Shown here in pieces: positions 6,001 to 23,896 of a DNA stretch of 64,000 nt. The stretch's first letter is position 1. Each line of letters opens with the position of its first letter. The notes below the pieces were generated by a model. It was not told the DNA's origin. It saw only the letters and a program-made list of their open reading frames with translations, and did not search any database. Position numbers and translations under genes: made by a program. This DNA comes from Pacificispira spongiicola (GTDB lineage Bacteria > Pseudomonadota > Alphaproteobacteria > UBA8366 > Aestuariispiraceae), in assembly GCF_012926505.1 (NCBI RefSeq), contig NZ_JABBNT010000002.1, positions 310,001-374,000 of the forward strand, read 5' to 3'.

Positions 6001-8129
6001 ACGGGTCGACGCTGACCAACAGCAACAATAACGGGTTGTCATCCTTGACGCTGACCGGTTCCGGAAAGCTGATCAACACGTTCGGCACGACGCTGAGCAT
6101 GGACGACATGGAATTCGCCAATGGCATGACGGCGATCAACAACGGTGTCATGACACTCGACACCGACGAAACGATGTCCGTCCTCGGCACGACATCCGGT
6201 ATGACGATTTCTTCGACCGGCGTGTTTCAGCATATCGGCGATACGTACAGTTATATTCGGTTGAACGACGGCGGCCGGATGGTCAATCAGGGCATGATCG
6301 GCATCGGTGGCACGGAAGGCGTTGTATCGTTGTTCAACAACAGCGGCGCCGATGGGACGTTCTCAAATGTCGGCACGATCAGTTTCTCCAACACGTCCAA
6401 TAGGTTGAGTGTCGGATCGAATACAACACTGACTTTTCAATCCGGCACTGCCTTTGCCGGAGCCGCGGGTATCATCTCGGTTTCCAACGGGGCGGCACTT
6501 GCCTTCGACACCAATTTCGATATGGACGGTTCGGTTGAGTTCACAGCCCTTGTCGAAGGTCCCCCTGTCACCATGTCGGGCACAGGAACGGTCACCAACA
6601 GCGGCGGGTTGGACAACCTTTATGGCTTCGATCTGGCGATGGCGAAGTTCATCAACGCGTCGAATCTAAACCTCAGCGGCGGTGCCATCAGCACGGATTT
6701 CCTGAACAGCGCGGCAACCGGTCAGATGACCCTGACGAATGGGGGGACGCTGACCCTGGACAGCACCCTAACCAATGCGGGTCAACTGGACCTCGGCAAT
6801 GCGGAAATCGCAGGAACCGGTACGTTGATCAATACCGGCACCATCGGAATGACGGCGACGTCGCAATCCCTGACCGCGGATGTCAGCGACATCGACTTCC
6901 ATAACCAAGGAACGATCACCTTGGTCGGGGAACAATTCGGTCAAACAACCGCCTCCCCCACTTTGTCGGTCGCGCACCTCACCGTGAACGACGGCGTCAT
7001 TGAGTTCGAACCGGGCAGGATATCCGAACCGGTCCTGCGGGTCGGTGACGCGGCGGGAACGCTTATCAACAACGGCGAATTGAATTTCAACACCGGCAGC
7101 GGGACCATAAGCGGGAAGTCCAGGATCGACGGAAGCGTCGAATTCGGCGCCGATGACGGCACCATGTTCGTTAACAGTTTCCAGGCTCAGGCGCACAGCA
7201 CCGCGAACAAGGTGCAAATCACGGGCGATCTGACCATGAACGAAAACTCGAAACTGGTCATGGATTTGGGATCCGGTACGAACGCGGCGGACCACACCGC
7301 CTATTTGGATGTCGGCGGCACAACGACTTGGGGCGGCACATTCGAAGTTCGGGTCAACTCTGACTATTCCAATACATCGACCGACGCGATTACCAGCATG
7401 TATGAGGCCGGTAACTTCATGCGCGTGCGGATCGTCGATGCGGATACCGGCGCGAGCATCGGTAAGAACGACTCCGGTGATATCCTGTTGCCGTCCTTTG
7501 TCGGTACCGGTTTCAAACTGTCGACGGGCGGCTTGACCGGCGATTTGGAAACGATCGAGGATCAGGACGCCATCCAAGGCAGTGTGGGCGACAGCGGCGA
7601 CAACAGCTTCACCCTGAACACGGTCGGCGACCGGGAAGTCTGGTACGGGCTGGACGGCAACGACAGTTTCACGCTGTCGAACGGCGGTACCCTGGCTTTC
7701 CTGGATGGCGGGATCGGCGATGTCGATATTCTGCATGTCCAATCCGACTTCTATGGTTTGGCGAACAATTCGACGAACGAATGGCGCCTGAACAACCTGG
7801 AAGCCCTGGACTATACGGGCGGAGCGGATGGAACGATTTCGATGACCCAGGATTTTGCCTTCGCCTTGTCGGAGGACGTGAACTCTCTCGTCAACGGATT
7901 GTCCATCGACGCCTCGCTGAAGGACGACGCCCTGATCATCGCGGGCGGTACCGGCCAGACGCTGTCCTTCACCGACGCCATCAATTGGACGGCGACGGGA
8001 ACGACCGTTTCGCTGGACCACGACAATCAAAACGGCAGCGACAGTTACGCGATCTATACGGCCAGCAATGGCGCGCATGTCTATGTCGATACCGATATGT
8101 CGGTTAACATGCAGTCGACGCCGGTATAA
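1..8129 (+). CDS. Giant beta-repeat surface/secreted adhesin-like protein, 5' end outside window
   Basis: The reading frame is open from base 3 to the TAA at 8127-8129, giving about 2,708 visible residues; the true start lies upstream. It is almost entirely low-complexity Gly/Thr/Asn/Ser/Asp sequence built from short degenerate units such as NTGTI, GTLTN and GGTLD. This is typical of beta-helical passenger or adhesin proteins, and the DNA word aataccggcac recurs. Cysteine is essentially absent, as in exported repeat proteins. The last 180 or so residues change character (GLDGNDSF, LDGGIGDVDIL, NNLEALDYTGG, then a YAIYTASNGAHVYVD-type end). That resembles the C-termini of large type I-secreted repeat proteins. 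No outer-membrane beta-barrel end is visible, so a classical autotransporter is less likely. Role in adhesion or biofilm is inference. The export machinery is not in the window. Confidence 0.85.
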   Translation, partial: VGGLDISSGNLVVSAGTLSFDDLYVAGAFATISGSGTVEFTGAGEASIGALALNTTFRVAEDADLDLNYGARITGDGKIDNFGNIFFEGGKTTLSVDIDNHGDIDLNGLNGTTLSLIDTLTNRGTIDFGTDSSDSVKINGGGDFIDNGGTFGDANGATIVFVDSTDFVLGSANGFTLSQTGPTLAFNANTGIHTGLATAEFLNEGVLDFDSGTIGTGVVLDNNGRVIVDGLQVEGTLDTRDGTIAAAHGEAGFAINDGGRLIVGEDSRFENSSGTIGQGVPFISAQDGAIVEIAESETVDLDALGSFDFSDGGTLDVGGVWQVNGTSTISDNASLTFTGDGSIVNAGYLFLNNDTVDVDIVNYDDSQEAIGTVDFDASTVLNSEIDGGTVIVSGGTLSGMGTLTNQDALELSASAVLAVNADLGAGTLFYGDGATITSALDLTSGTLRGAFVIEAAAELEVSGTNAIMSISDDTLLESGYVSLLAGATLKVAAGSDLDLASDGYQDFYFQDGGTMSTLSLEGDVRFTDTSYLLDNSGSVEVSGPGTLTVTQDGDLNISNDTLAVAVQNAGTISFQSTANEIEGTVTNTGTIAFQSNAETDLVGRIDNTGTIVMGDSAILRGDGTGVIDQDGHLTITNGATAQIRDIDLDMSHGTLTATDGALLRIDDGAITVGTNMVFNHHGTGSDGTLLIGSGGTLNILAGETITTTDEELNVKSGTIAGTGLLRNHGTLDLTDAVIAEGAQVSSTGSIDISTEWNGGTGLILHGTLTNQNTLDVGAANLSIGTTGTLINNYAMDFSGSALTVDGVLNNQDEDGPGGEIPAPTFTLANNSTLTGSGTLANDGHMVFGGSSKLFVDHFENAGTAVFGYGATINVGDFDLSGGTLDYSSGSVVVTGGTIDATNGALVADSIQDNLIFSGGKLIVGSGTTLSQYGDPLITAYATLSIADGSSFNVHDFSLVGGTVDGSGTLTNASSWTLSNIALGDDLHFVNNGTISEMNGTLHFGRDIDNTNGELRLTNSSNGSTITLDSGGTFTLEGLTRMQGGGVIQGGSASESLMLTGTLMSNNAAKADTISVDMTVDETGSLIVGGDIAAGTDGTLAITGAFRNDGFVQVDPALAAHGVLKITEDFTNTGTLQVDNGASLSVGAGSGTILNTGLMRGYTASESDSETGTLTLGKIDNTGTIALAETGQIAMKWTIDGGWVDTTNGTLHIADGNVLTFDAGTLSVGTNSVLLGTGGTIEFQSASMLDIGAGATISTENYGFDFDDSTISGMGTLEIADDGGSAAFGNTTISATVVNEGTLASVAYGKTAFIDGTFANKSTANLIASGNISITANGDLQNAGTITTFSGWVDVAEGGSFTNSGTLNFAGLASGGSLSLDGTMANSGVLEFSGNGQSDFQIVSGTIGLLDNSGTLLLTDSGEQSSTTLMVESDITNTGTIELDAFLRYGYGEGAAGYNLDTRDGAIIVNSDGELNIRETITVGADTDLSGGGELNVTHGGTMVVATGETFTYSDDEELVGLLDGTITGSGEYINESGTLYVAGGKISVVSFTNADLLLLDSGTLTIDTANFTNRAANGTISAGTIELTASTAQAAVLKLANDLTNDGVIRMTGSLAADNAILTHTASETLTNSLNGTIEVTTGSEPGDRILDLNIVNQGLLKLNNADGTLTAGHLLDTTAGQIDIGTSDTLVVKGELQLGSVTNLTGAGPVDVQGLLSVAAGQNYTHFDSASRFDFSTQGKLGGDGTFTNLSALDITNATLSIAGFQNSGTVSVATGDATITTAGFNNTGGHLNVTGLGVDSMLYFDASMTSAGSITVNASDAAAGLVSTSQHAFTLTNAGYMEFTGGGAGNAAYNILAVDVVNTGTISVDGYAEIRNLASLDTSNGKLEIAPSGAQGLLERLDLDTGATLVVGTDTQLAGNGTILFGDNSTLSIGANENFTYSGTGAVLDLNQWDSIAVTGAGTFTNTTDLSLGGATLSVGTLVNQGSITSTTGTLHFDGSTLTNSNNNGLSSLTLTGSGKLINTFGTTLSMDDMEFANGMTAINNGVMTLDTDETMSVLGTTSGMTISSTGVFQHIGDTYSYIRLNDGGRMVNQGMIGIGGTEGVVSLFNNSGADGTFSNVGTISFSNTSNRLSVGSNTTLTFQSGTAFAGAAGIISVSNGAALAFDTNFDMDGSVEFTALVEGPPVTMSGTGTVTNSGGLDNLYGFDLAMAKFINASNLNLSGGAISTDFLNSAATGQMTLTNGGTLTLDSTLTNAGQLDLGNAEIAGTGTLINTGTIGMTATSQSLTADVSDIDFHNQGTITLVGEQFGQTTASPTLSVAHLTVNDGVIEFEPGRISEPVLRVGDAAGTLINNGELNFNTGSGTISGKSRIDGSVEFGADDGTMFVNSFQAQAHSTANKVQITGDLTMNENSKLVMDLGSGTNAADHTAYLDVGGTTTWGGTFEVRVNSDYSNTSTDAITSMYEAGNFMRVRIVDADTGASIGKNDSGDILLPSFVGTGFKLSTGGLTGDLETIEDQDAIQGSVGDSGDNSFTLNTVGDREVWYGLDGNDSFTLSNGGTLAFLDGGIGDVDILHVQSDFYGLANNSTNEWRLNNLEALDYTGGADGTISMTQDFAFALSEDVNSLVNGLSIDASLKDDALIIAGGTGQTLSFTDAINWTATGTTVSLDHDNQNGSDSYAIYTASNGAHVYVDTDMSVNMQSTPV

Positions 8130-14946: not shown

Positions 14947-15239
14947 CGTCTGCCCCGCTGTCTTTTATCGTTTCATGAAATGGTGCACAGCACCGCCCTG
15001 AAAAGCAACGAAACTTGTGAAGTATTTTATCGATCACGACACAACTGTTTGGCCACGCCGGAGAAATGGCGTTTGACTCCTTTTGAAACGCATGATGTTC
15101 TGGGCGTTCAGCACGCGCGGAATACGGGGTCCTTCCGCGACCCGGGACGCCACATGGTCCCAGCGGTTCCGCGTAGCCATTCTATAGATGAAAGCGTGGT
15201 GGAACTGTGGGGCCCCCGCTTTTCAGGGAGACTTCAAAA
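14947..15239. promoter_or_regulatory. Divergent regulatory region between FAH gene and dppA
   Basis: No gene is seen in this 293-bp gap. It contains two adjacent perfect palindromes close to the FAH start: TTTCATGAAA at 14971-14980 and GGTGC-ACA-GCACC at 14982-14994. Both are good operator candidates. A TTGACT at 15073 could be a -35 box for dppA, but no convincing -10 lies at the right distance, so I do not assign a promoter. CAGGGAG at about 15224-15230 is the ribosome site for the dppA GTG start. Confidence 0.4.
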
Positions 15240-16832
15240 GTGAAAAAAGCACTTCTGGCGGCCGTCACCGGCCTTACCTTGGCTATGGGGGCACAGGCTG
15301 CTCAGGCCAAGACCCTGGTTTTTTGCTCGGAAGGCAGTCCCGAAGGATTCAACCCGGCGTTTTACACCGCCGGTACGACCTTCGACGCGACCTCTCGTCA
15401 AATCTTCAACAAGCTCGTCGAATTCGAACGCGGCTCCACGAAGATCGTCCCGGGTCTCGCCGAAAGCTGGGAAGTCAGCAACGACGGGTTGGAATACACC
15501 TTCAACCTGCGTAAGGGCGTCAAGTTCCACACGACGGACGGCTTCACGCCGACGCGTAACTTCAACGCTGCGGACGTGGTCTTCTCGTTCAAGCGTCAGT
15601 GGGATCCGAACCACCCGTATCATGCTGTTTCCGGCGGCTCCTACGAATACTTCAACGGCATGTCCATGCCGGACCTGATCAAGGACATCGTCGCGGTCGA
15701 CGACTACACGGTGAAGTTCGTTCTGAACCGTCCGGAAGCCCCGATGATCGCGAACCTGGCGATGGATTTCGCCTCCGTCACCTCTGCAGAATACGCGGAT
15801 AAGATGATGGAAGCCGGCACGCCGGAGAAAGTCGACCTTGAGCCGGTCGGCACGGGTCCGTTCCAACTGGTCGATTACCAGAAAGACGCCGTCATCCGTT
15901 ACAAGGCCAACCCGGACTATTGGGCCGGTGCGGCGCCGATCGACAACCTGATCTTCGCCATCACGCCGGACGCGTCCGTGCGCTATGAGAAGCTGAAGGC
16001 CGGTGAATGCCATGTCATGCCGTATCCGAATCCGGCCGACCTGGAAGACATGAAGGCCAATGGCGACATCAACCTGATGGAACAGGAAGGCCTGAACGTC
16101 GGCTATCTGGCCTATAACACGCAGGTGGCGCCGTTCGACAATCCGAAGGTCCGCAAGGCCCTGAACATGGCGATCAACAAGGAAGCCATCATCGAGGGCG
16201 TGTTCCAGGGGGCCGGTAAGGTCGCCAAGAACCCGATCCCGCCGACGATCTGGTCCTACAACGAAGCGACCGTCGACGATCCGTACGATCCGGATGCGGC
16301 GAAAGCCATGCTGGAAGCCGAAGGTGTCAAGGACCTGTCGATGAAGATCTGGGCCATGCCGGTCCAGCGTCCGTACAACCCCAACGCCTCGCGTATGGCC
16401 GAACTGATTCAGGCGGACTTCGCGAAAGTCGGCGTGACGGCGGAAATCGTCTCCTACGAATGGGGCGAATACCTGAAGCGTTCCAAGGAACTGGACCGCG
16501 ACGGCGCGGTTCTGCTGGGTTGGACCGGTGACAACGGCGACCCCGACAACTTCCTGGCCGTTCTGCTCGGCTGCGACGCTGTCGGCGGCTCAAACCGTGC
16601 CCAGTGGTGCTATCAGCCGTTCGAAGACCTGATCCAGAAGGCGAAAGTCGTTTCCGACAACGCCGAACGTACCAAGCTGTATGAAGAAGCGCAGGTCGTC
16701 TTCAAGGAACAGGCCCCGTGGGCGACGATCGCACACTCCGTCGTCTTCAAGCCGGTTCGCAAGGAAGTCAAAGACTTCCGCATCGATCCGTTCGGCGGCC
16801 ACGTCTTCTACGGCGTCGATATCGAAGAGTAA
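15240..16832 (+). CDS. dppA: Dipeptide ABC transporter periplasmic binding protein DppA
   Basis: 530 residues, close in sequence along its whole length to E. coli DppA as I remember it. The mature N-terminus KTLVFCSEGSPEGFNP, the segments SGGSYEYFNGM and PTRNFNAADVVFSF, and the late segment WAMPVQRPYNPN all match. The start is GTG at 15240, with CAGGGAG upstream and a Sec signal peptide ending AAQAAQA before KTLV. An in-frame upstream ATG at 15207 would only add residues ahead of the signal peptide. It binds dipeptides (and in E. coli also haem and 5-aminolevulinate) in the periplasm and delivers them to DppBC. First gene of the dpp operon; a hairpin separates it from dppB. Confidence 0.95.
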   Translation: MKKALLAAVTGLTLAMGAQAAQAKTLVFCSEGSPEGFNPAFYTAGTTFDATSRQIFNKLVEFERGSTKIVPGLAESWEVSNDGLEYTFNLRKGVKFHTTDGFTPTRNFNAADVVFSFKRQWDPNHPYHAVSGGSYEYFNGMSMPDLIKDIVAVDDYTVKFVLNRPEAPMIANLAMDFASVTSAEYADKMMEAGTPEKVDLEPVGTGPFQLVDYQKDAVIRYKANPDYWAGAAPIDNLIFAITPDASVRYEKLKAGECHVMPYPNPADLEDMKANGDINLMEQEGLNVGYLAYNTQVAPFDNPKVRKALNMAINKEAIIEGVFQGAGKVAKNPIPPTIWSYNEATVDDPYDPDAAKAMLEAEGVKDLSMKIWAMPVQRPYNPNASRMAELIQADFAKVGVTAEIVSYEWGEYLKRSKELDRDGAVLLGWTGDNGDPDNFLAVLLGCDAVGGSNRAQWCYQPFEDLIQKAKVVSDNAERTKLYEEAQVVFKEQAPWATIAHSVVFKPVRKEVKDFRIDPFGGHVFYGVDIEE

Positions 16833-16854
16833 GGCTCTTCATCGGGATAGGGTG

Positions 16855-16894
16855 GGACCGGCGTGAGTTTGTTCGCGCCGGTCCTTTCCGTTTT
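16855..16894 (+). terminator. Intercistronic hairpin/attenuator between dppA and dppB
   Basis: GGACCGGCG (16855-16863) pairs perfectly with CGCCGGTCC (16876-16884), followed by TTTCCGTTTT. The T-run is interrupted, so this is probably a partial terminator or an mRNA-stabilising stem. It would allow more binding protein than permease to be made from one operon. That pattern is common for binding-protein genes; strength here is inferred. Confidence 0.6.
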
Positions 16895-16929
16895 AACATC
16901 CCGTTGACGGCCGTAAGGGACCGGCATTC

Positions 16930-17943
16930 ATGTTCAGATACACACTTAACAAAGTCGCATTGACGATCCCGACACTGATCGGCGTCACGATCGTCGCATT
17001 CGCCTTTATTCGCCTTTTGCCCGGCGATCCGATTCTTCTCTTGGCGGGCGAACGCGGCGTTACCGAGGAACGCTATACCCAATTGGCTGCGCAATTCGGG
17101 TTCGACCAGCCTCTTTGGCAGCAATACCTGATATTCATGGGGAACTTGCTCCAGGGCGATCTCGGCAATTCCTTCGTCACGAAGCAACCGGTGTTGACGG
17201 AGTTTCTGGCACGGTTCCCCGCGACCCTGGAACTGTCGATCTTCGCCATGCTCCTGGCACTGATCGTCGGCCTGCCCGCGGGCGTCATCGCCGCCGTTCG
17301 GCGTGGCACCTTCTTCGACCACACGCTCATGACGGTGTCTCTGACCGGCTATTCCATGCCGATCTTCTGGTGGGGCCTTCTGCTTATCATCCTATTTTCC
17401 AGCATCCTGGGTTGGACTCCCGTGTCGGGCCGCATTTCGGTCATGTATTTTTTCGACATGCCGACCGGCTTGATGACCATCGACGCCCTTTTTTCCGGGG
17501 ATAAAGGCGCCTTCCGCTCCGCGCTCAGCCATCTGATTCTACCGTCGATCGCGCTCGGTACGATTCCCATGGCCGTGATCGCGCGGCAGACCCGATCGGC
17601 GATCCTGGAGGTTCTGGGCGAAGACTATATCCGTACCGCCCGGGCAAAAGGGATTTCGGCCTGGCGCATCGTCGGTCTGCATGCGCTGCGCAACGCCTTG
17701 ATCACGGTCGTCACCGTCATTGGGCTTCAGGTCGGCGTGCTGTTCGCGGGCGCCATTCTGACGGAAACGATTTTCGCCTGGCCCGGTATCGGTAAGTGGA
17801 TGATCGATTCCATCTACCGTCGCGACTATCAGGTGGTCCAGGGCGGCCTGATCCTAATCGCCGGTATCGTGATGATCGTGAACCTGATCGTCGACTTCTT
17901 GTACGGATTGATCAATCCGCGCATCCGCCATACGAGGGGCTGA
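16930..17943 (+). CDS. dppB: Dipeptide ABC transporter permease DppB
   Basis: 337 residues, with the usual DppB/OppB opening (MFRYTLNKVALTIPTLIGVT) and six predicted membrane segments. The EAA cytoplasmic loop EDYIRTARAKGISAWRIVGL contacts the ATPase subunits. AAGGGA upstream of the ATG serves as ribosome site. It is separated from dppA by a 97-bp gap containing the hairpin, and from dppC by 2 bp. Forms the membrane channel with DppC. Confidence 0.95.
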   Translation: MFRYTLNKVALTIPTLIGVTIVAFAFIRLLPGDPILLLAGERGVTEERYTQLAAQFGFDQPLWQQYLIFMGNLLQGDLGNSFVTKQPVLTEFLARFPATLELSIFAMLLALIVGLPAGVIAAVRRGTFFDHTLMTVSLTGYSMPIFWWGLLLIILFSSILGWTPVSGRISVMYFFDMPTGLMTIDALFSGDKGAFRSALSHLILPSIALGTIPMAVIARQTRSAILEVLGEDYIRTARAKGISAWRIVGLHALRNALITVVTVIGLQVGVLFAGAILTETIFAWPGIGKWMIDSIYRRDYQVVQGGLILIAGIVMIVNLIVDFLYGLINPRIRHTRG

Positions 17944-17945
17944 CA

Positions 17946-18851
17946 ATGAGCACCGCTACCACTACGTCCGACATCGGCGGTTCGCCGCGCACTCGCGCAA
18001 TCGCCGAATTCTGGCACTATTTCAGCGAAAACAAGGGTGCCGTCGTCGGCCTCTGTTTCGTCGGCATTGTTATCTGTTGCGCGATTTTCGCACCGCTGAT
18101 CGCCCCTTATTCGCCGGAAGAGCAATTCCGCGACTACTTCCTGGTTCCGCCGGTTTGGGAAGACGGCGGCAGCTCAATGTTCCTGCTTGGTACCGATGCG
18201 GTCGGGCGGGATATCCTGTCACGGCTCATCTATGGCGCGCGTTATTCCTTGGCGGCGGGTTGCGTTATTATCGCCCTCACGCTGACATCGGGAATCGGAC
18301 TCGGCCTCACCGCCGGTTATGTCCGCGGCTGGTTCGAAGTCCTGGTGATGCGATTAATGGATATCATCCTATCCGTCCCGTCCCTGCTTCTGGCCTTGGT
18401 ATTGGTAACCGTGCTGGGTCCCGGACTGTTCAGCGCGATTGTCGCGATTGCCGTGACCTATGTCCCTCACTTCGTCCGACTGACCAGGGCGCAGGTGATC
18501 TCCGAGGCCCAGCGTGACTATGTGACCGCCAGCCGTGTCGCCGGTGCGGGCACCCTGCGCCTGATGGTTATCGCAATCCTGCCGAACTGCATGGCCCCCC
18601 TGATCGTCCAGGCCACCATGTCCTTTTCCACGTCGATCCTGGATGTGGCGGCGCTCGGCTTCTTGGGGGTCGGGGCGCAGCCGCCGACACCGGAATGGGG
18701 CCGCATGCTGGCCGAAGCACGGGAATTCATCACCCGCGCCTGGTGGGTCGTGACCTTCCCCGGTCTGGCGATCCTTTTGACCGTATTGGCGATCAACCTG
18801 ATGGGCGATGGATTGCGCGACGCGCTCGACCCGAAAATGAAGAGGTCCTGA
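17946..18851 (+). CDS. dppC: Dipeptide ABC transporter permease DppC
   Basis: 301 residues of the DppC/OppC type: cytoplasmic N-terminus, first membrane segment at about 34-52, and an extracytoplasmic stretch containing the family signature FLLGTDAVGRDILSRLIYGAR. The remaining membrane segments carry the EAA loop (QRDYVTASRVAGAGTLRLMV). The ATG at 17946 was chosen over an upstream extension inside dppB because it has GAGGGG upstream and follows the dppB stop by 2 bp. Heterodimerises with DppB. Confidence 0.95.
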   Translation: MSTATTTSDIGGSPRTRAIAEFWHYFSENKGAVVGLCFVGIVICCAIFAPLIAPYSPEEQFRDYFLVPPVWEDGGSSMFLLGTDAVGRDILSRLIYGARYSLAAGCVIIALTLTSGIGLGLTAGYVRGWFEVLVMRLMDIILSVPSLLLALVLVTVLGPGLFSAIVAIAVTYVPHFVRLTRAQVISEAQRDYVTASRVAGAGTLRLMVIAILPNCMAPLIVQATMSFSTSILDVAALGFLGVGAQPPTPEWGRMLAEAREFITRAWWVVTFPGLAILLTVLAINLMGDGLRDALDPKMKRS

Positions 18852-18854
18852 TCG

Positions 18855-19847
18855 ATGCCGCTTCTAGAGATACAGAACCTATCCGTCGATTTCGCCACGG
18901 CGCATGGCAAATTCCGGGCGGTCGACGGCGTCAACCTGACCGTCGATCCGGGCGAAACCGTCGCCATCGTCGGTGAATCCGGTTCCGGGAAATCCGTGTC
19001 CATGTTGGCCCTGATGGGCTTGCTGCCCTGGACCGCGACAATCACCGCGGACCGCATGGCGCTGGACGGGCGCGATCTTCTGACCATGAGCAAGCGGCAG
19101 CGCCGTAGCCTTGCGGGCAAGGATATCGCGATGATCTTCCAGGAGCCGATGACGAGCCTGAATCCGTGTTTCACGGTCGGGTTCCAAATCGACGAGATCC
19201 TGAAGACCCATATGTCGCTGACCCGTAAGGAACGCGACCGTCGCGCGATCGAACTTATGTCCCTGGTCGGCATCCCGTCGCCGGAATCCCGATTATCGGC
19301 CTTCCCGCACCAGCTTTCGGGCGGGATGAGCCAGCGCGTGATGATCGCCATGATGATCGCCTGCAATCCGCGTCTGTTGATCGCGGACGAACCGACCACG
19401 GCCCTGGATGTGACCATTCAGGCACAGATCCTGGAACTGTTGCTGACCCTGCAACAGGAAACGGGCATGGCCCTGGTGCTGATCACGCACGATATGGGCG
19501 TGGTGGCGGAAACCGCGCAGCGCGTCGTCGTGCAGTATGCGGGGCAGCAGGTGGAAGCACGGCCCGTGCTGGACCTGTTCGACATGCCGCGTCATCCCTA
19601 TACCCAGGCGCTTCTGGCGGCCCTGCCGGAACGCGCGACCAGTCAGCACCTGCCGTCCATTCCAGGTGTCGTGCCGGGTCAATTCGACCGGCCCGCAGGG
19701 TGTTTGTTCAATCCGCGCTGCGAATACGCGACCGACCTGTGCCGGTCCACCCCGCCGGTGGTCCGCGACGGCGCGCTGTGCCACATGCCGCTGGACGATG
19801 CCGGTAACCCGACCCAACCCAAAATTCTTGCGGAGGCCGCGTCGTGA
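18855..19847 (+). CDS. dppD: Dipeptide ABC transporter ATP-binding protein DppD
   Basis: 330 residues with a complete ABC ATPase set: Walker A GESGSGKS, signature LSGGMSQR, Walker [13 protein letters not shown] and switch His in LVLITHDMG. The C-terminal oligopeptide/dipeptide extension contains a Cys cluster ([19 protein letters not shown], then ALCHMP), which in DppD/OppD relatives can bind a 4Fe-4S cluster. The ATG at 18855 lies 3 bp after the dppC stop. Its stop overlaps the dppF GTG by 4 bases (GTGA), implying translational coupling. Confidence 0.95.
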
Positions 19848-20851
19848 GCAATCAAGCAGTTCTATCCGCGCGGGACCTGAAGCGCGATTATGAGGTCGGC
19901 GGCAGCGCCTTTTCCAAACCGAAACTGCTGCGCGCTTTGGCCGGGGCCAGTTTCGACCTGTTCCCCGGCAAAACCCTGGCCGTTGTGGGGGAATCCGGTT
20001 GCGGCAAGTCCACTCTCGGCCGTCTGGTCACGATGATTGAAAAACCGACCAGCGGCACCCTGACCCTGGACGGAAAGGATGTCGTCGCCGGGCTGTCCAA
20101 CAAGGCGGAAGCCAAGCAATTGCGCCAGGACGTCCAGATCGTCTTCCAGGATCCCTACGGCTCGCTCAACCCCCGGCATAAGATCGGGTCGATGCTGGAA
20201 GAGCCGCTGAAGATCAACCGGCCCGACCTGTCCGCGAAGGATCGGGAGGAACTGGGCCGTCAGATGATGGCGAAGGTCGGTCTGCGGCCTGAACATTACT
20301 CCCGCTATCCGCATATGTTTTCCGGCGGCCAGCGTCAGCGCATCGCCATTGCCCGCGCCCTGATGTTGCAGCCGAAGGTGATCGTGCTGGACGAACCGGT
20401 GTCCGCCCTGGACGTCTCCATTCAGGCACAGGTTCTGAACCTGCTGAACGACGTGCAGGAGGAATTCAAACTCGCCTATCTCTTCATCTCGCACGATCTG
20501 TCTGTGGTGAAGCATGTCGCGGACGAGGTCATGGTGATGTATCTGGGCCGTCCGGTGGAAAAGGGGTCCTGCGAGGAAATTTTCGCCAATCCGCAGCATC
20601 CGTATACCCGCGCTCTGCTGTCCGCCACGCCGGTGGCCGATCCGCGCCACAAGCGCGACCGTATCCGGCTGACGGGCGAAATCCCCTCCCCCATCGCGCC
20701 GCCGCCGGGCTGCACCTTCCATCCGCGTTGTCCGCTCGCCAATGAGCGCTGCCGCGCGGAAATCCCGGAACTCCTGGACCGAGGGGGCACCCTGATCGCC
20801 TGTCACGCCGTGGAAGAAGGCCGCAACCAGGAAGCCGCACCCGCCGCGTAA
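19844..20851 (+). CDS. dppF: Dipeptide ABC transporter ATP-binding protein DppF
   Basis: 335 residues; the second ATPase of the importer. Walker A is [10 protein letters not shown]-loop [15 protein letters not shown], signature [15 protein letters not shown] and Walker [13 protein letters not shown]. The C-terminal Cys cluster ([15 protein letters not shown], later IACHAV) matches the oligopeptide transporter ATPase extension. It starts with GTG overlapping the dppD stop. Last gene of the operon; it converges on the CULT-domain gene, whose stop is 3 bp away, with no obvious terminator between. Confidence 0.95.
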
Positions 20852-20854
20852 GAC

Positions 20855-21229
20855 CTACCTTTTCGGCCGGTCCGTCAATGCCTGGCGGATCAGGCCGAAA
20901 AAGGCACTGTCCGCATTGGTGTAAACCCAGCCGATATGTTCCGCGCAGCCGCGGCACAGCGCGTATTGCCACGCGAAACCGGGAAACCATGAGAATTCCG
21001 TCGTCGCGTCGCCCCAGGCCGCAGCCCCCGTCGCCCGCGAAAAGCAGCGGATGACGAACAGCCGACCCATCGGATTGAACACGGTGTGCTCGTGCGTACC
21101 GCGCCTTGCGACCGCATGGGCCGACCGCGTGATCGGATGGCCGCAGGCAGCACAGAAAAGCCGGTCGTCGTCGGATAAAGACTCATTCACGTCGGAAGAC
21201 GGCTTGCCTTGAATATCGGACTCCAGCAC
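20855..21229 (-). CDS. CULT-domain (bacterial cereblon-like) protein
   Basis: 124 residues from a GTG at 21229, which has AAAGGAG 8 bases upstream; an in-frame ATG at 21253 would add 8 residues but lacks a good ribosome site. Zinc ligands are CxxC at 26/29 and CxxC at 92/95. The aromatic cage that in human cereblon binds thalidomide is complete: Trp81 and Trp87 (SWFPGFAW), Trp101 and Tyr103 (HIGWVY). Asn52 lies in HTVFNPMG, the counterpart of the VNPHG segment of cereblon. The end FFGLIRQAL parallels FWGLTRSAL. Length and spacing fit the single-domain Magnetospirillum protein MsCI4. That protein binds uridine and thalidomide-type ligands in vitro, but its cellular role is unknown. No signal peptide is seen. 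It diverges from the SDR gene at 21274 with a 44-bp gap. Confidence 0.9.
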   Translation of the reverse strand: MLESDIQGKPSSDVNESLSDDDRLFCAACGHPITRSAHAVARRGTHEHTVFNPMGRLFVIRCFSRATGAAAWGDATTEFSWFPGFAWQYALCRGCAEHIGWVYTNADSAFFGLIRQALTDRPKR

Positions 21230-21237
21230 CGTCGTTT

Positions 21238-21244
21238 CTCCTTT
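21238..21244 (-). promoter_or_regulatory. Ribosome binding site fixing the CULT-gene start
   Basis: AAAGGAG on the minus strand, 8 bases before GTG 21229. It lies inside the 8-codon extension from ATG 21253, which is why the shorter GTG form is preferred. Confidence 0.65.
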
Positions 21245-21273
21245 GGGTCCCATGGCATTGGCGGAGATTAGCG

Positions 21274-22035
21274 ATGCACGACTTTACCGGCAAACGGGCA
21301 ATCGTAACGGCGGGCGGTTCAGGCATCGCCCGGCGCATCGCGGAACGGCTTCACGAAGCCGGGGCCAGTGTGTTCGCGGGCGATGTCGATCAGGCGGCGC
21401 TGGGCACCCTGCCCGACGGTATCGGTTACGCCTTCTGCAATGTTGCGGATCAAGCCTCCACCGACGCCTTCTTCGATCAAGCCCTGACCGCGCTAAACGG
21501 TGTCGATATCCTGATCAACGCGGCGGGTATCAAAGGGCCGACAGGCGCGATCGAGGATGTGGACCCCGCCGAATGGCGCGCCTGTGTGGATGTGAACCTG
21601 ACCGGGGCTTTCCACTGCATGCGCCGTGTTCTGGGTCCGATGAAGGAACAGGGGTCGGGCAGCGTGATCAATTTCTCCTCCACCGCCGGACTGTTCGGCT
21701 ATCCCAACCGATCGCCCTATTGCGCGGCGAAATGGGCGATTATCGGCATGACCAAGGGCGCGGCGGCCGAGGCCGGGCCCTTCAACGTTCGGGTCAACGC
21801 GCTGTGTCCCGGCGCCGTCGAGGGGGAGCGCATGGACCGGGTCATCCGGGACGAGGCCGCCACGACCGGCAAGACCGAGGAACAGGTCCGCGCGGACTAT
21901 GTGAAGGATACCAGCATGCGCTGCTTCGTGACGGCGGACGACATGGCGGAAACCGTCATGTTCCTGTGTTCCGACGCGGGCGCGCGGATATCCGGACAGG
22001 CCATTCCCGTCGACGGCCACACATCGATGCTGTAA
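21274..22035 (+). CDS. Short-chain dehydrogenase/reductase with altered Gly motif
   Basis: 253 residues of classical SDR length. The fold landmarks are present: strand-4 motif INAAG (usually NNAG), catalytic Ser in INFSSTAG, Tyr/Lys in PYCAAKW, and a VNALCPGAVEG segment. The dinucleotide-binding motif reads TAGGSGIA instead of TGxxxGIG, with Ala at the first and last Gly positions. Cofactor preference or binding mode may therefore differ. The acidic residue after strand 2 (AGDVD) suggests NAD over NADP. The ATG at 21274 has GGAGA upstream. It is divergent from the CULT gene and convergent with the AT-rich gene (3-bp gap). Substrate unknown. Confidence 0.85.
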   Translation: MHDFTGKRAIVTAGGSGIARRIAERLHEAGASVFAGDVDQAALGTLPDGIGYAFCNVADQASTDAFFDQALTALNGVDILINAAGIKGPTGAIEDVDPAEWRACVDVNLTGAFHCMRRVLGPMKEQGSGSVINFSSTAGLFGYPNRSPYCAAKWAIIGMTKGAAAEAGPFNVRVNALCPGAVEGERMDRVIRDEAATTGKTEEQVRADYVKDTSMRCFVTADDMAETVMFLCSDAGARISGQAIPVDGHTSML

Positions 22036-22038
22036 CCC

Positions 22039-22995
22039 TTACTCAAAATCTCTTATACTGCCTATTTTGTATCTCACGTACTGATTGCGCCGATCAGCAT
22101 TTCGACTTTGCCCTAAAGCATCTTCGACATACTTCTTACCACCATCAGAAACAGAATTATTATACTTTATCTTCAAATAATCCCTCTCTCTTTCCAAAGA
22201 AACAATTTTATCTTTCAATTTAATTATATATTCTTTTTTATTATTTTCAGTATCTAGCATCTTTTTCTTTATTGTGTCTATATCCACAATATTACGACTA
22301 ATTTCTTTATTTTTTTCGTTTATTTCATAATTTAATTTCTTTGTAAATTCCGACATTTCTACATATTTTTTTTGTATTTCTTCGTAATTTCCAATCACCT
22401 TATTTAGCTCTATGTTTTTATTATACAAATCATTATTTTTTTGCCCTATTTCTTTATCTTTTTCAGAAATGATAATTTTATAAGATTTTTCAATTTGCTC
22501 GACATGCAATTTAGAGTTCAATAATTGGGTTTGTTTTTCTTTTTCCAACCTAGAAATATATGTCTCTGTATTTGCCAACTGAACCTCAATATCCTTAACC
22601 TTCTTCAAAGCCTCCTCTTCGCGTCGGCGAATTTCAAGAGCCTCCTCTCTAGACATAAAAATATCTTTATCGATGCTCCTAATATACTCCTCTTGTTTTT
22701 TTAACTGCCAGTGCCAGTACCCAGCAACTATTCGAGAAGGGAAAGGGTAAATCAAAAGAAACGCCGCTGTTGTTAACACAGGTAAAATTAGGAAAAATAT
22801 TAGCAAATCTAGCCATCCACCATACAATACACTTTCTATTATTTCTATCTTAACAACAACGTCTTTAGATGAAAATACAACCAAGAACAATTTATAGTTC
22901 CAGGTCAAAAAGGAAATAAATAGAGAGCCTCCTAATGGGCCAACAAATCTCGCTCTTACCCCGGACATTACCGTCTCTTTTAGATTATTAATCAA
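22039..22995 (-). CDS. AT-rich orphan: two-TM membrane-anchored coiled-coil protein
   Basis: 318 residues. Base composition is strikingly AT-rich against GC-rich neighbours, with Lys/Asn/Ile-rich codon use, a sign of horizontal acquisition. Two hydrophobic segments (about 22-41 and 60-84) are separated by a short Lys/Glu loop. A long charged coiled coil (about 97-300) follows, with a basic C-terminus. The N-terminal pattern (RFVGPLGGSLFISFLTWNYK, then IYPFPSRIV) looks like a conserved but uncharacterised membrane module I have seen in scattered bacterial proteins. Start is TTG 22995 because GGAGG lies 6 bases upstream; an internal ATG at 22968 is weaker. The coiled coil is probably cytoplasmic. 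I do not recognise a function; accessory or defence roles are possible but unproven. Confidence 0.8.
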   Translation of the reverse strand: MINNLKETVMSGVRARFVGPLGGSLFISFLTWNYKLFLVVFSSKDVVVKIEIIESVLYGGWLDLLIFFLILPVLTTAAFLLIYPFPSRIVAGYWHWQLKKQEEYIRSIDKDIFMSREEALEIRRREEEALKKVKDIEVQLANTETYISRLEKEKQTQLLNSKLHVEQIEKSYKIIISEKDKEIGQKNNDLYNKNIELNKVIGNYEEIQKKYVEMSEFTKKLNYEINEKNKEISRNIVDIDTIKKKMLDTENNKKEYIIKLKDKIVSLERERDYLKIKYNNSVSDGGKKYVEDALGQSRNADRRNQYVRYKIGSIRDFE

Positions 22996-23152: not shown

Positions 23153-23896
23153 CTATAGGAACGGCGCTTTCGTTACCGGCTGACGGGCGACGGCGATCGC
23201 GTCTTCCAGGCTGATCCGGTTGTTGAATAGCGCTCGACCAACAATGGCCCCGGCGATCCCCGGCAGCTGTTTCAGTACGGCGATATCATCCAACCCCCGC
23301 ACCGTGCCTGAGGACAGGATGTCGATATCCAATTCCTTTGCCAGCTGGATCGTCGCGGCAAATCCGGCTTCCGGCTGTTCGGTATCCATGTCGATATCGG
23401 TGTAGATCAGGGCCGCGGCGCCCATTTCCTGGAACGCCTTGCCCAGTTCCAGCGGGCTGTACATCGTCTTTTCCCGCCAGCCTTCGATCACGACCTTGCC
23501 GTCGCGGGCGTCCAGGCTGATCGCGACCTTGCCCGGCCACCGGGCGCAGGCTTCATGCACGAAGGTTCTGTCCTTCACCGCCGCCGTGCCCAGAACGATG
23601 CGGCTGGCCCCCGCCGCGAACCACCATTCGGCGGCGCTCATCGTCCGAATACCGCCGCCTACCTGACACGGTATGCCGGACGACTGCATGATATGCTTCA
23701 GAACATCGCCGTTATGCTGGCCACCCTGCAGAATCCCGTCGATATCGACGAGGTGCAGCCATTCCGCCCCCTTCGCGACAAGGCCGGAGGCGGCCTCGGA
23801 CGGCGATACCGAATAGGTTTCGACATCGTCGATATCACCGCGTCTCAGATTGACGCATTGACCGGCTTTTACCTGGATCGTCGGATAGATGATCAT
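23153..23896 (-). CDS. HisA paralogue lacking the first catalytic Asp
   Basis: 247 residues, a complete (beta/alpha)8 barrel of the HisA/HisF family. Phosphate-binding segments VGGGIRT and SSGTVRG and the strand-1 region MIIYPTIQVKAG are clear. In true HisA the strand-1 residue 8 is the catalytic Asp (PAIDLKDG); here it is Gln8. The second catalytic Asp is retained in ISLDARDGKVVIEGW. The gene does not sit among his genes. It lies 74 bp downstream of, and on the same strand as, the CaiD-like gene. It is therefore probably a neofunctionalised paralogue and not the histidine-pathway isomerase. Start is ATG 23896 with GGGGAAG upstream. A GC hairpin at 23914-23933 lies in the leader. Confidence 0.75.
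   Translation of the reverse strand: MIIYPTIQVKAGQCVNLRRGDIDDVETYSVSPSEAASGLVAKGAEWLHLVDIDGILQGGQHNGDVLKHIMQSSGIPCQVGGGIRTMSAAEWWFAAGASRIVLGTAAVKDRTFVHEACARWPGKVAISLDARDGKVVIEGWREKTMYSPLELGKAFQEMGAAALIYTDIDMDTEQPEAGFAATIQLAKELDIDILSSGTVRGLDDIAVLKQLPGIAGAIVGRALFNNRISLEDAIAVARQPVTKAPFL

Follow-up and report, generated by a model that had tools for sequence, protein, structure and literature searches.

The ligand pocket of cereblon is widely used in drug design, and a short gene of Pacificispira spongiicola raises the question of what such a pocket does in a bacterium and with which partner it would act. The gene lies in a stretch of 64,000 nucleotides (contig NZ_JABBNT010000002.1, positions 310,001 to 374,000), which we call the window, and it stands beside a divergent gene for an SDR-family dehydrogenase. 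An earlier note, made from the sequence alone, had described the product as a bacterial CULT protein with a zinc site and an aromatic cage, and had suggested that the SDR may act on, or respond to, the same ligand, for example cyclic imides formed at protein C-termini. The CULT family is already known, and the window protein adds a member to it; the new part is the gene context. A conserved gene partner makes the open question of the bacterial CULT role testable, with one binding protein and one dehydrogenase at hand.

In order to define the gene, we examined its reading frame on the minus strand, which is open for 132 residues from an ATG (20855-21253) and for 124 residues from a GTG (20855-21229). 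We preferred the GTG start at 21229 over the upstream ATG, because the sequence AAAGGAG lies 8 bases 5' of it and because the first residues of the resulting protein (VLES..) align with M-L-D, where the proteins of the other five genus members begin. A Pfam search matched the protein to PF03226 (Yippee-Mis18) at 27.5 bits, barely above the cut-off of 26.6, and in a search of its own genome it was the sole match to this family. No other Pfam family scored above its cut-off, so that the protein consists of a CULT domain alone. Searching solved structures with phmmer returned the bacterial CULT protein MsCI4 at an E-value of 6.4e-24 and human cereblon at 1e-11 to 5e-10. Cereblon, a substrate receptor of an E3 ligase, has an N-terminal LON-like domain, whereas the Pfam search found no match to a LON-like domain in the 124-residue window protein, which also differs from human cereblon in having no DDB1-binding part. 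We conclude that the window protein is almost certainly a bona fide bacterial CULT protein; the identity first proposed from the letters alone is borne out by the family match, by the similarity to MsCI4, and by a predicted fold that superposes on ligand-bound MsCI4.

Table 1. Features of the CULT locus and its surroundings (window coordinates).
Feature	Position	Strand	Basis or remark
Peptide-type ABC transporter	15207-20851	(+)	SBP_bac_5 and oligo_HPY domains
CULT-domain protein	20855..21229	(-)	124 aa, GTG start, AAAGGAG ribosome site, single domain
Aromatic cage segment (Trp81, Trp87, Trp101, Tyr103)	20921..20989	(-)	Sequence; Trp 32/32, position 103 Tyr or Phe
Second zinc CxxC (Cys92, Cys95)	20945..20956	(-)	Sequence; invariant 32/32
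First zinc CxxC (Cys26, Cys29)	21143..21154	(-)	Sequence; invariant 32/32
Intergenic gap between both start codons	21230..21273	(.)	44 bases, head-to-head
SDR-family dehydrogenase	21274..22035	(+)	253 aa, motif TAGGSGIA, Asn108-Ser136-Tyr149-Lys153 (positions by eye)
AT-rich stretch with ORF	22039-22995	(-)	GC about 0.29-0.42 vs 0.60-0.65
HisA-family protein	23153-23896	(-)	PTIQVK: Gln at the position of HisA's first catalytic Asp

The features that define CULT, among them two CxxC motifs for zinc, are set out in passages of PMC4287342, with others in passages of PMC4449219 and PMC8900816, and the NPxG motif is named in PMC4449219. This motif reads Asn52-Pro53-Met-Gly55 in the window protein. 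We found that all 32 distinct bacterial CULT sequences share the four cysteines, Asn52, Pro53, Gly55, Trp81, Phe82, Trp87, Gly100, Trp101, Phe110, and Leu113, and that position 103 is Phe in 22 of them and Tyr in 10. The zinc cysteines and the cage residues thus stand at the positions that had been read from the sequence. These 32 sequences come from 34 loci, minus L015, where the full frame is absent, and L010, which is the same record as L050; L009, at the same place as L016, was left out of the counts. Gene calling at the 34 loci returned no CULT gene in 17, and with the CULT frame forced in, L015 was the only locus left without one. L009 (CP051228.1) is titled Mesoflavibacter (Bacteroidota) and encodes the same CULT protein as the genus member G004, a label that looks wrong.

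An AlphaFold2 model built from seven aligned sequences reached a mean pLDDT of 87.8, with weak values for about the first 20 residues. Comparison of this model by Foldseek gave MsCI4 in all of the best 30 rows (TM(target) 0.84-0.92, about 41% identity), and VIA-align gave MsCI4 in all of its best 21 rows (Z 18.0-19.2, rmsd 1.0-2.2 over 97-107 residues) and human cereblon at a Z of about 17 with 30-35% identity. The comparison with MsCI4 that the earlier note had called for therefore returned a predicted beta-tent fold with MsCI4 as its best structural match, just as the family search had returned PF03226. As far as sequence and predicted fold can tell, as distinct from atom-level geometry, the ligand pocket is intact.

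MsCI4 (cereblon isoform 4, MGR_0879, of Magnetospirillum gryphiswaldense; PDB 4V2Y and others) is likewise a single-domain bacterial CULT protein, at about 41% identity, and shares the zinc site, the NPxG motif, and the Trp cage with the window protein. Trp81, Trp87, and Trp101 correspond to its W79, W85, and W99 in our alignment and in a passage of PMC8900816, and the fourth cage residue is Tyr in both (Y101 in MsCI4). The thalidomide-binding domain of human cereblon has the same fold and the same three tryptophans, but carries Phe where the window protein has Tyr103; the Y101F variant of MsCI4 reproduces the human cage (passage of PMC8900816). Yippee and Mis18 proteins belong to the same Pfam family and share the beta-tent fold with CULT (passage of PMC4287342), whereas the Trp cage is a feature of CULT.

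According to passages of PMC4449219, MsCI4 has uridine and thalidomide among its ligands and folds upon binding, and it accepts uridine while refusing thymidine and cytidine. PDB 8BC7 shows MsCI4 in complex with QcQ, the terminal dipeptide of a natural degron peptide that ends in a cyclic Gln (passage of PMC10641816). The assertion that CULT domains bind uridine or glutarimide-type groups thus stands for this relative and extends to the window protein by analogy, and from that analogy we consider it very likely that the window CULT binds an imide- or uridine-type ring. PMC4449219 states that its authors could not consolidate a biological context for uridine, and across the titles and abstract openings of the open-access literature, which largely excludes subscription papers, we found no established function for a bacterial CULT protein and nothing contrary to the view that none is established.

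We found the head-to-head pair of CULT and SDR genes in all six species of the genus examined (the window and G001-G005). The start codons are separated by 44 bases in the window, 37 in G004, 38 in G002, 43 in G005, and 44 in both G003 and G001; in G001 the contig ends inside the SDR. The divergent neighbour is a real gene, with matches to adh_short (164.2 bits) and adh_short_C2 (170.8 bits). Identity between the window's proteins and those of the other genus members is 72-75% for the SDR and about 49-53% for CULT, which changes faster than the SDR within the genus. NG86 estimates of dN/dS for CULT were about 0.03-0.15 between nearer species and about 0.4 between the window and G004, a rough value since synonymous sites are near saturation; both genes are under purifying constraint, with synonymous changes near saturation in the wider pairs. 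A scan for sigma-70-like promoters found none between the two genes, and no terminator was found in 20700-22200; the one promoter-like match, at 22136, was about as expected from shuffles.

The pair occupies two different genomic settings. In G002 and G004, it sits in the window's own setting, with the FAA-hydrolase gene, the transporter, the HisA-like gene, and the CoA-ligase gene. In G001, G003, and G005, these neighbours are absent within the stretches compared, apart from weak matches of the transporter ATPases to another ABC ATPase; an AAA gene read by eye as MoxR-like lies on the CULT side in all three, and an amidase-domain gene (read as GatA) and a GatC-like gene lie on the SDR side in G003 and G005, the two genomes in which both flanks of the changed setting are seen. 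Since the pair is tight and head-to-head, CULT and SDR are probably expressed together and would serve one process, and we regard their functional coupling as reasonably probable on this sequence evidence. On the basis of the pairing, CULT most likely works beside the SDR in this genus.

Because the six species are closely related and a head-to-head pair about 40 bases apart can move as a block, conservation of the pairing is partly inertia. This leaves room for a reading of the pair as a passenger: the two genes would be unrelated, would happen to have a short divergent promoter region in common, and would stay adjacent since separation would break both promoters. Such a history would suit a pairing seen in one genus only, with all six SDRs in one clade and 0 of 26 other CULT loci carrying the SDR, but it fits less well with the persistence of the pair between two species groups with different flanks and with the purifying constraint on both genes. 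We judge it possible, if on the unlikely side.

To place the SDR, we compared it with homologues of the family. It aligns over nearly its whole length with FabG-like classical SDRs such as PDB 5UNL (E 1.7e-55), with Ser-Tyr-Lys kept. The catalytic Asn-Ser-Tyr-Lys set is present, including YCAAK, with the Asn and Ser assigned by eye, and an Asp after strand 2 is what we take to mark an NAD-type enzyme. The classical motif TGxxxGxG differs from the TAGGSGIA of the window SDR, in which the third glycine is replaced by Ala. Ala for the first Gly is common to all 23 readable order-level homologues; therefore, only the change at the third glycine, read by eye from the sequences, is distinctive. Ala at this position (TAxxxGIA) occurs in 6/6 CULT-linked SDRs, in none of the 23 other readable order-level homologues, in 0/20 paralogues of the window's own genome, a set that shares one member with the 23, and in one of the 14 new class-level loci. 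The order-level set comprised 32 matches, 30 of them with loci, and L092 was unreadable for the motif.

The single class-level exception, L141, belongs to genome G257, which we infer to lie within the class draw of 385 and for which CULT is not among the matches listed. The cofactor motif is thus altered, as had been claimed, but it is a weak sign of a special role, since L141 has it too, and we rejected it as proof of coupling or common origin with CULT. The six CULT-linked SDRs form one clade (support 100/99). Their sisters, L101 and L102 of a related genus (G007, G012) with no CULT match, lie directly 3' of an M81/MlrC metallopeptidase gene, and L141 falls on a long branch beside the CULT-linked and MlrC-linked SDRs in a tree that left out L087, L098, and L100, with L092 already excluded for its length. 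One or two origins of the GIA motif would both fit this tree. Because the sister SDRs and L141 have other neighbours, this SDR lineage must predate the association with CULT.

Outside the genus, CULT is patchy. A search of relatives found it in 7/59 genomes, the window's own included. In the window's order it was found in 7/43, and in the window's family in 6/6 genomes of its own genus and 0/8 others. It was present in at least 4 of 385 genomes of the class draw and in at least 21 of 398 of the phylum draw, counts that are lower bounds because only 7 to 11 candidates were scored per genome. CULT is common in the order to which G448 belongs, inferred to be Magnetococcales: there 20 of 48 genomes carry it, which makes this order a place to seek a partner. 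MsCI4, too, comes from a magnetotactic bacterium. Named genome contigs, scanned at a reach limited to close relatives, gave seven CULT loci, and the titles of their records include Acidobacteria, Gammaproteobacteria, Pseudomonadales, Myxococcales, and Nitrospinales (partial); passages of PMC4287342 place the bacterial CULT group mainly in the delta-proteobacteria, to which a few alpha- and gamma-proteobacteria and a spirochete are added. Neither phage nor plasmid records yielded a CULT relative, nor did viral contigs in a scan with one protein that reaches close relatives only, and there is accordingly no sign of carriage by such elements.

An SDR of the paired kind lay near none of 26 CULT loci outside the genus at E 1e-8, several of these contigs being short and four below 10 kb. 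Therefore, the proposed link to the SDR holds inside the genus, in six species and two settings, but is genus-specific. No gene recurs as a universal CULT partner, and the neighbours differ by clade. Their families were assigned by sending one member per cluster to Pfam and the others by clustering, with GatC, MoxR, and similar calls made by eye. At L051, L056, and L057, CULT follows BatD-type and VWA-type genes in the same direction (L051 by Pfam), and at L064 the VWA-type cluster is present with BatD not called. A rhodanese-family gene lies directly 3' of CULT in the same direction at L059, L062, and L069 (L059 by Pfam). At L012, a D-2-hydroxyacid dehydrogenase gene (6898-7872), of a different dehydrogenase family, stops two bases short of the CULT start as called.

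Together, these results lead us to favour, by a little more than an even chance, a model in which CULT binds an imide-type ring and acts with an NAD-type SDR in one process. A zinc ion would pin the beta-tent fold, and the three tryptophans with Tyr103 would hold an imide or uracil-type ring in their cage by its -CO-NH-CO- edge, as suggested by MsCI4, which folds around its ligand. Because no catalytic residues are known in the CULT family, the protein would capture or sense an imide-type compound or an imide-capped protein end and leave it unconverted, and the SDR would carry out redox chemistry on a connected metabolite. Several results weigh against this model: this kind of SDR is missing from the CULT loci scanned outside the genus, its lineage predates the pairing, the GIA motif recurs in L141, CULT changes faster than the SDR, and no sigma-70-like promoter was found between the genes.

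The nature of the ligand bears on two further readings. C-terminal cyclic imides are plausible because MsCI4 binds one in the crystal, and by this analogy they may be the ligand here, although we would call that rather unlikely. Human PCMT1 produces C-terminal cyclic imides that act as signals to cereblon in the cell (passages of PMC11974815 and PMC13001092), and together with the cyclic-imide peptide held by MsCI4 in 8BC7 (PMC10641816) this lends itself to a reading in which CULT is a free-standing reader of damaged proteins bearing C-terminal succinimide or glutarimide, passing them to a protease or repair enzyme, with the SDR as a chance neighbour. The variation of CULT neighbours by clade is as expected of a stand-alone protein, but no single neighbour is shared by the CULT loci of different clades, and the SDR pairing in six species is left unexplained. 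PIMT-family genes (PF01135) are present in 48/48 and 43/43 genomes, but they also occur in 14/14 controls; with PIMT everywhere and CULT patchy, their co-occurrence is neutral. We consider this reading doubtful.

In the other, which we also hold to be unlikely, CULT would be a sensor for a small imide metabolite such as uridine or uracil, and the SDR would serve in the catabolism of an imported compound, in one unit with the nearby peptide-type ABC transporter and FAA-hydrolase gene. Both genes do lie near the pair, the selectivity of MsCI4 for uridine agrees with such a sensor (PMC4449219), and around L141, which is the clade's most distant SDR, there are two FAA-hydrolase family genes, a match to Amdase that falls below its cut-off, and, on the other strand, a RidA-type gene. 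However, the CULT gene and the transporter (plus strand) are tail to tail and therefore not one operon, and in G001, G003, and G005 the pair does not have the transporter as a neighbour. It also differs between species at this very place, with 26-56% identity to its counterparts in G002 and G004 compared with 70-88% for the flanking genes, and is possibly a replaced cassette. A dedicated two-gene cyclic-imide system, in which the targets captured by CULT would be imide-capped proteins, peptides, or metabolites and in which the SDR, through its modified dinucleotide site, would complete their removal or report on them, would if true be a bacterial role of the cereblon-type pocket without ubiquitin, but we think it quite improbable.

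The region downstream of the SDR also varies within the genus. The ORF in the AT-rich stretch appears by eye to encode a membrane and coiled-coil protein and has no Pfam match; in G002 and G004, the HisA-like gene directly follows the SDR in place of this stretch. The Asp replaced by Gln in the HisA-like protein is the first catalytic Asp of HisA. G002 and G004 carry a 72-73% orthologue of this protein and a 45% second copy elsewhere in the genome, and G001, G003, and G005 carry only a 43-44% HisA copy, in a search that covered these five genus members.
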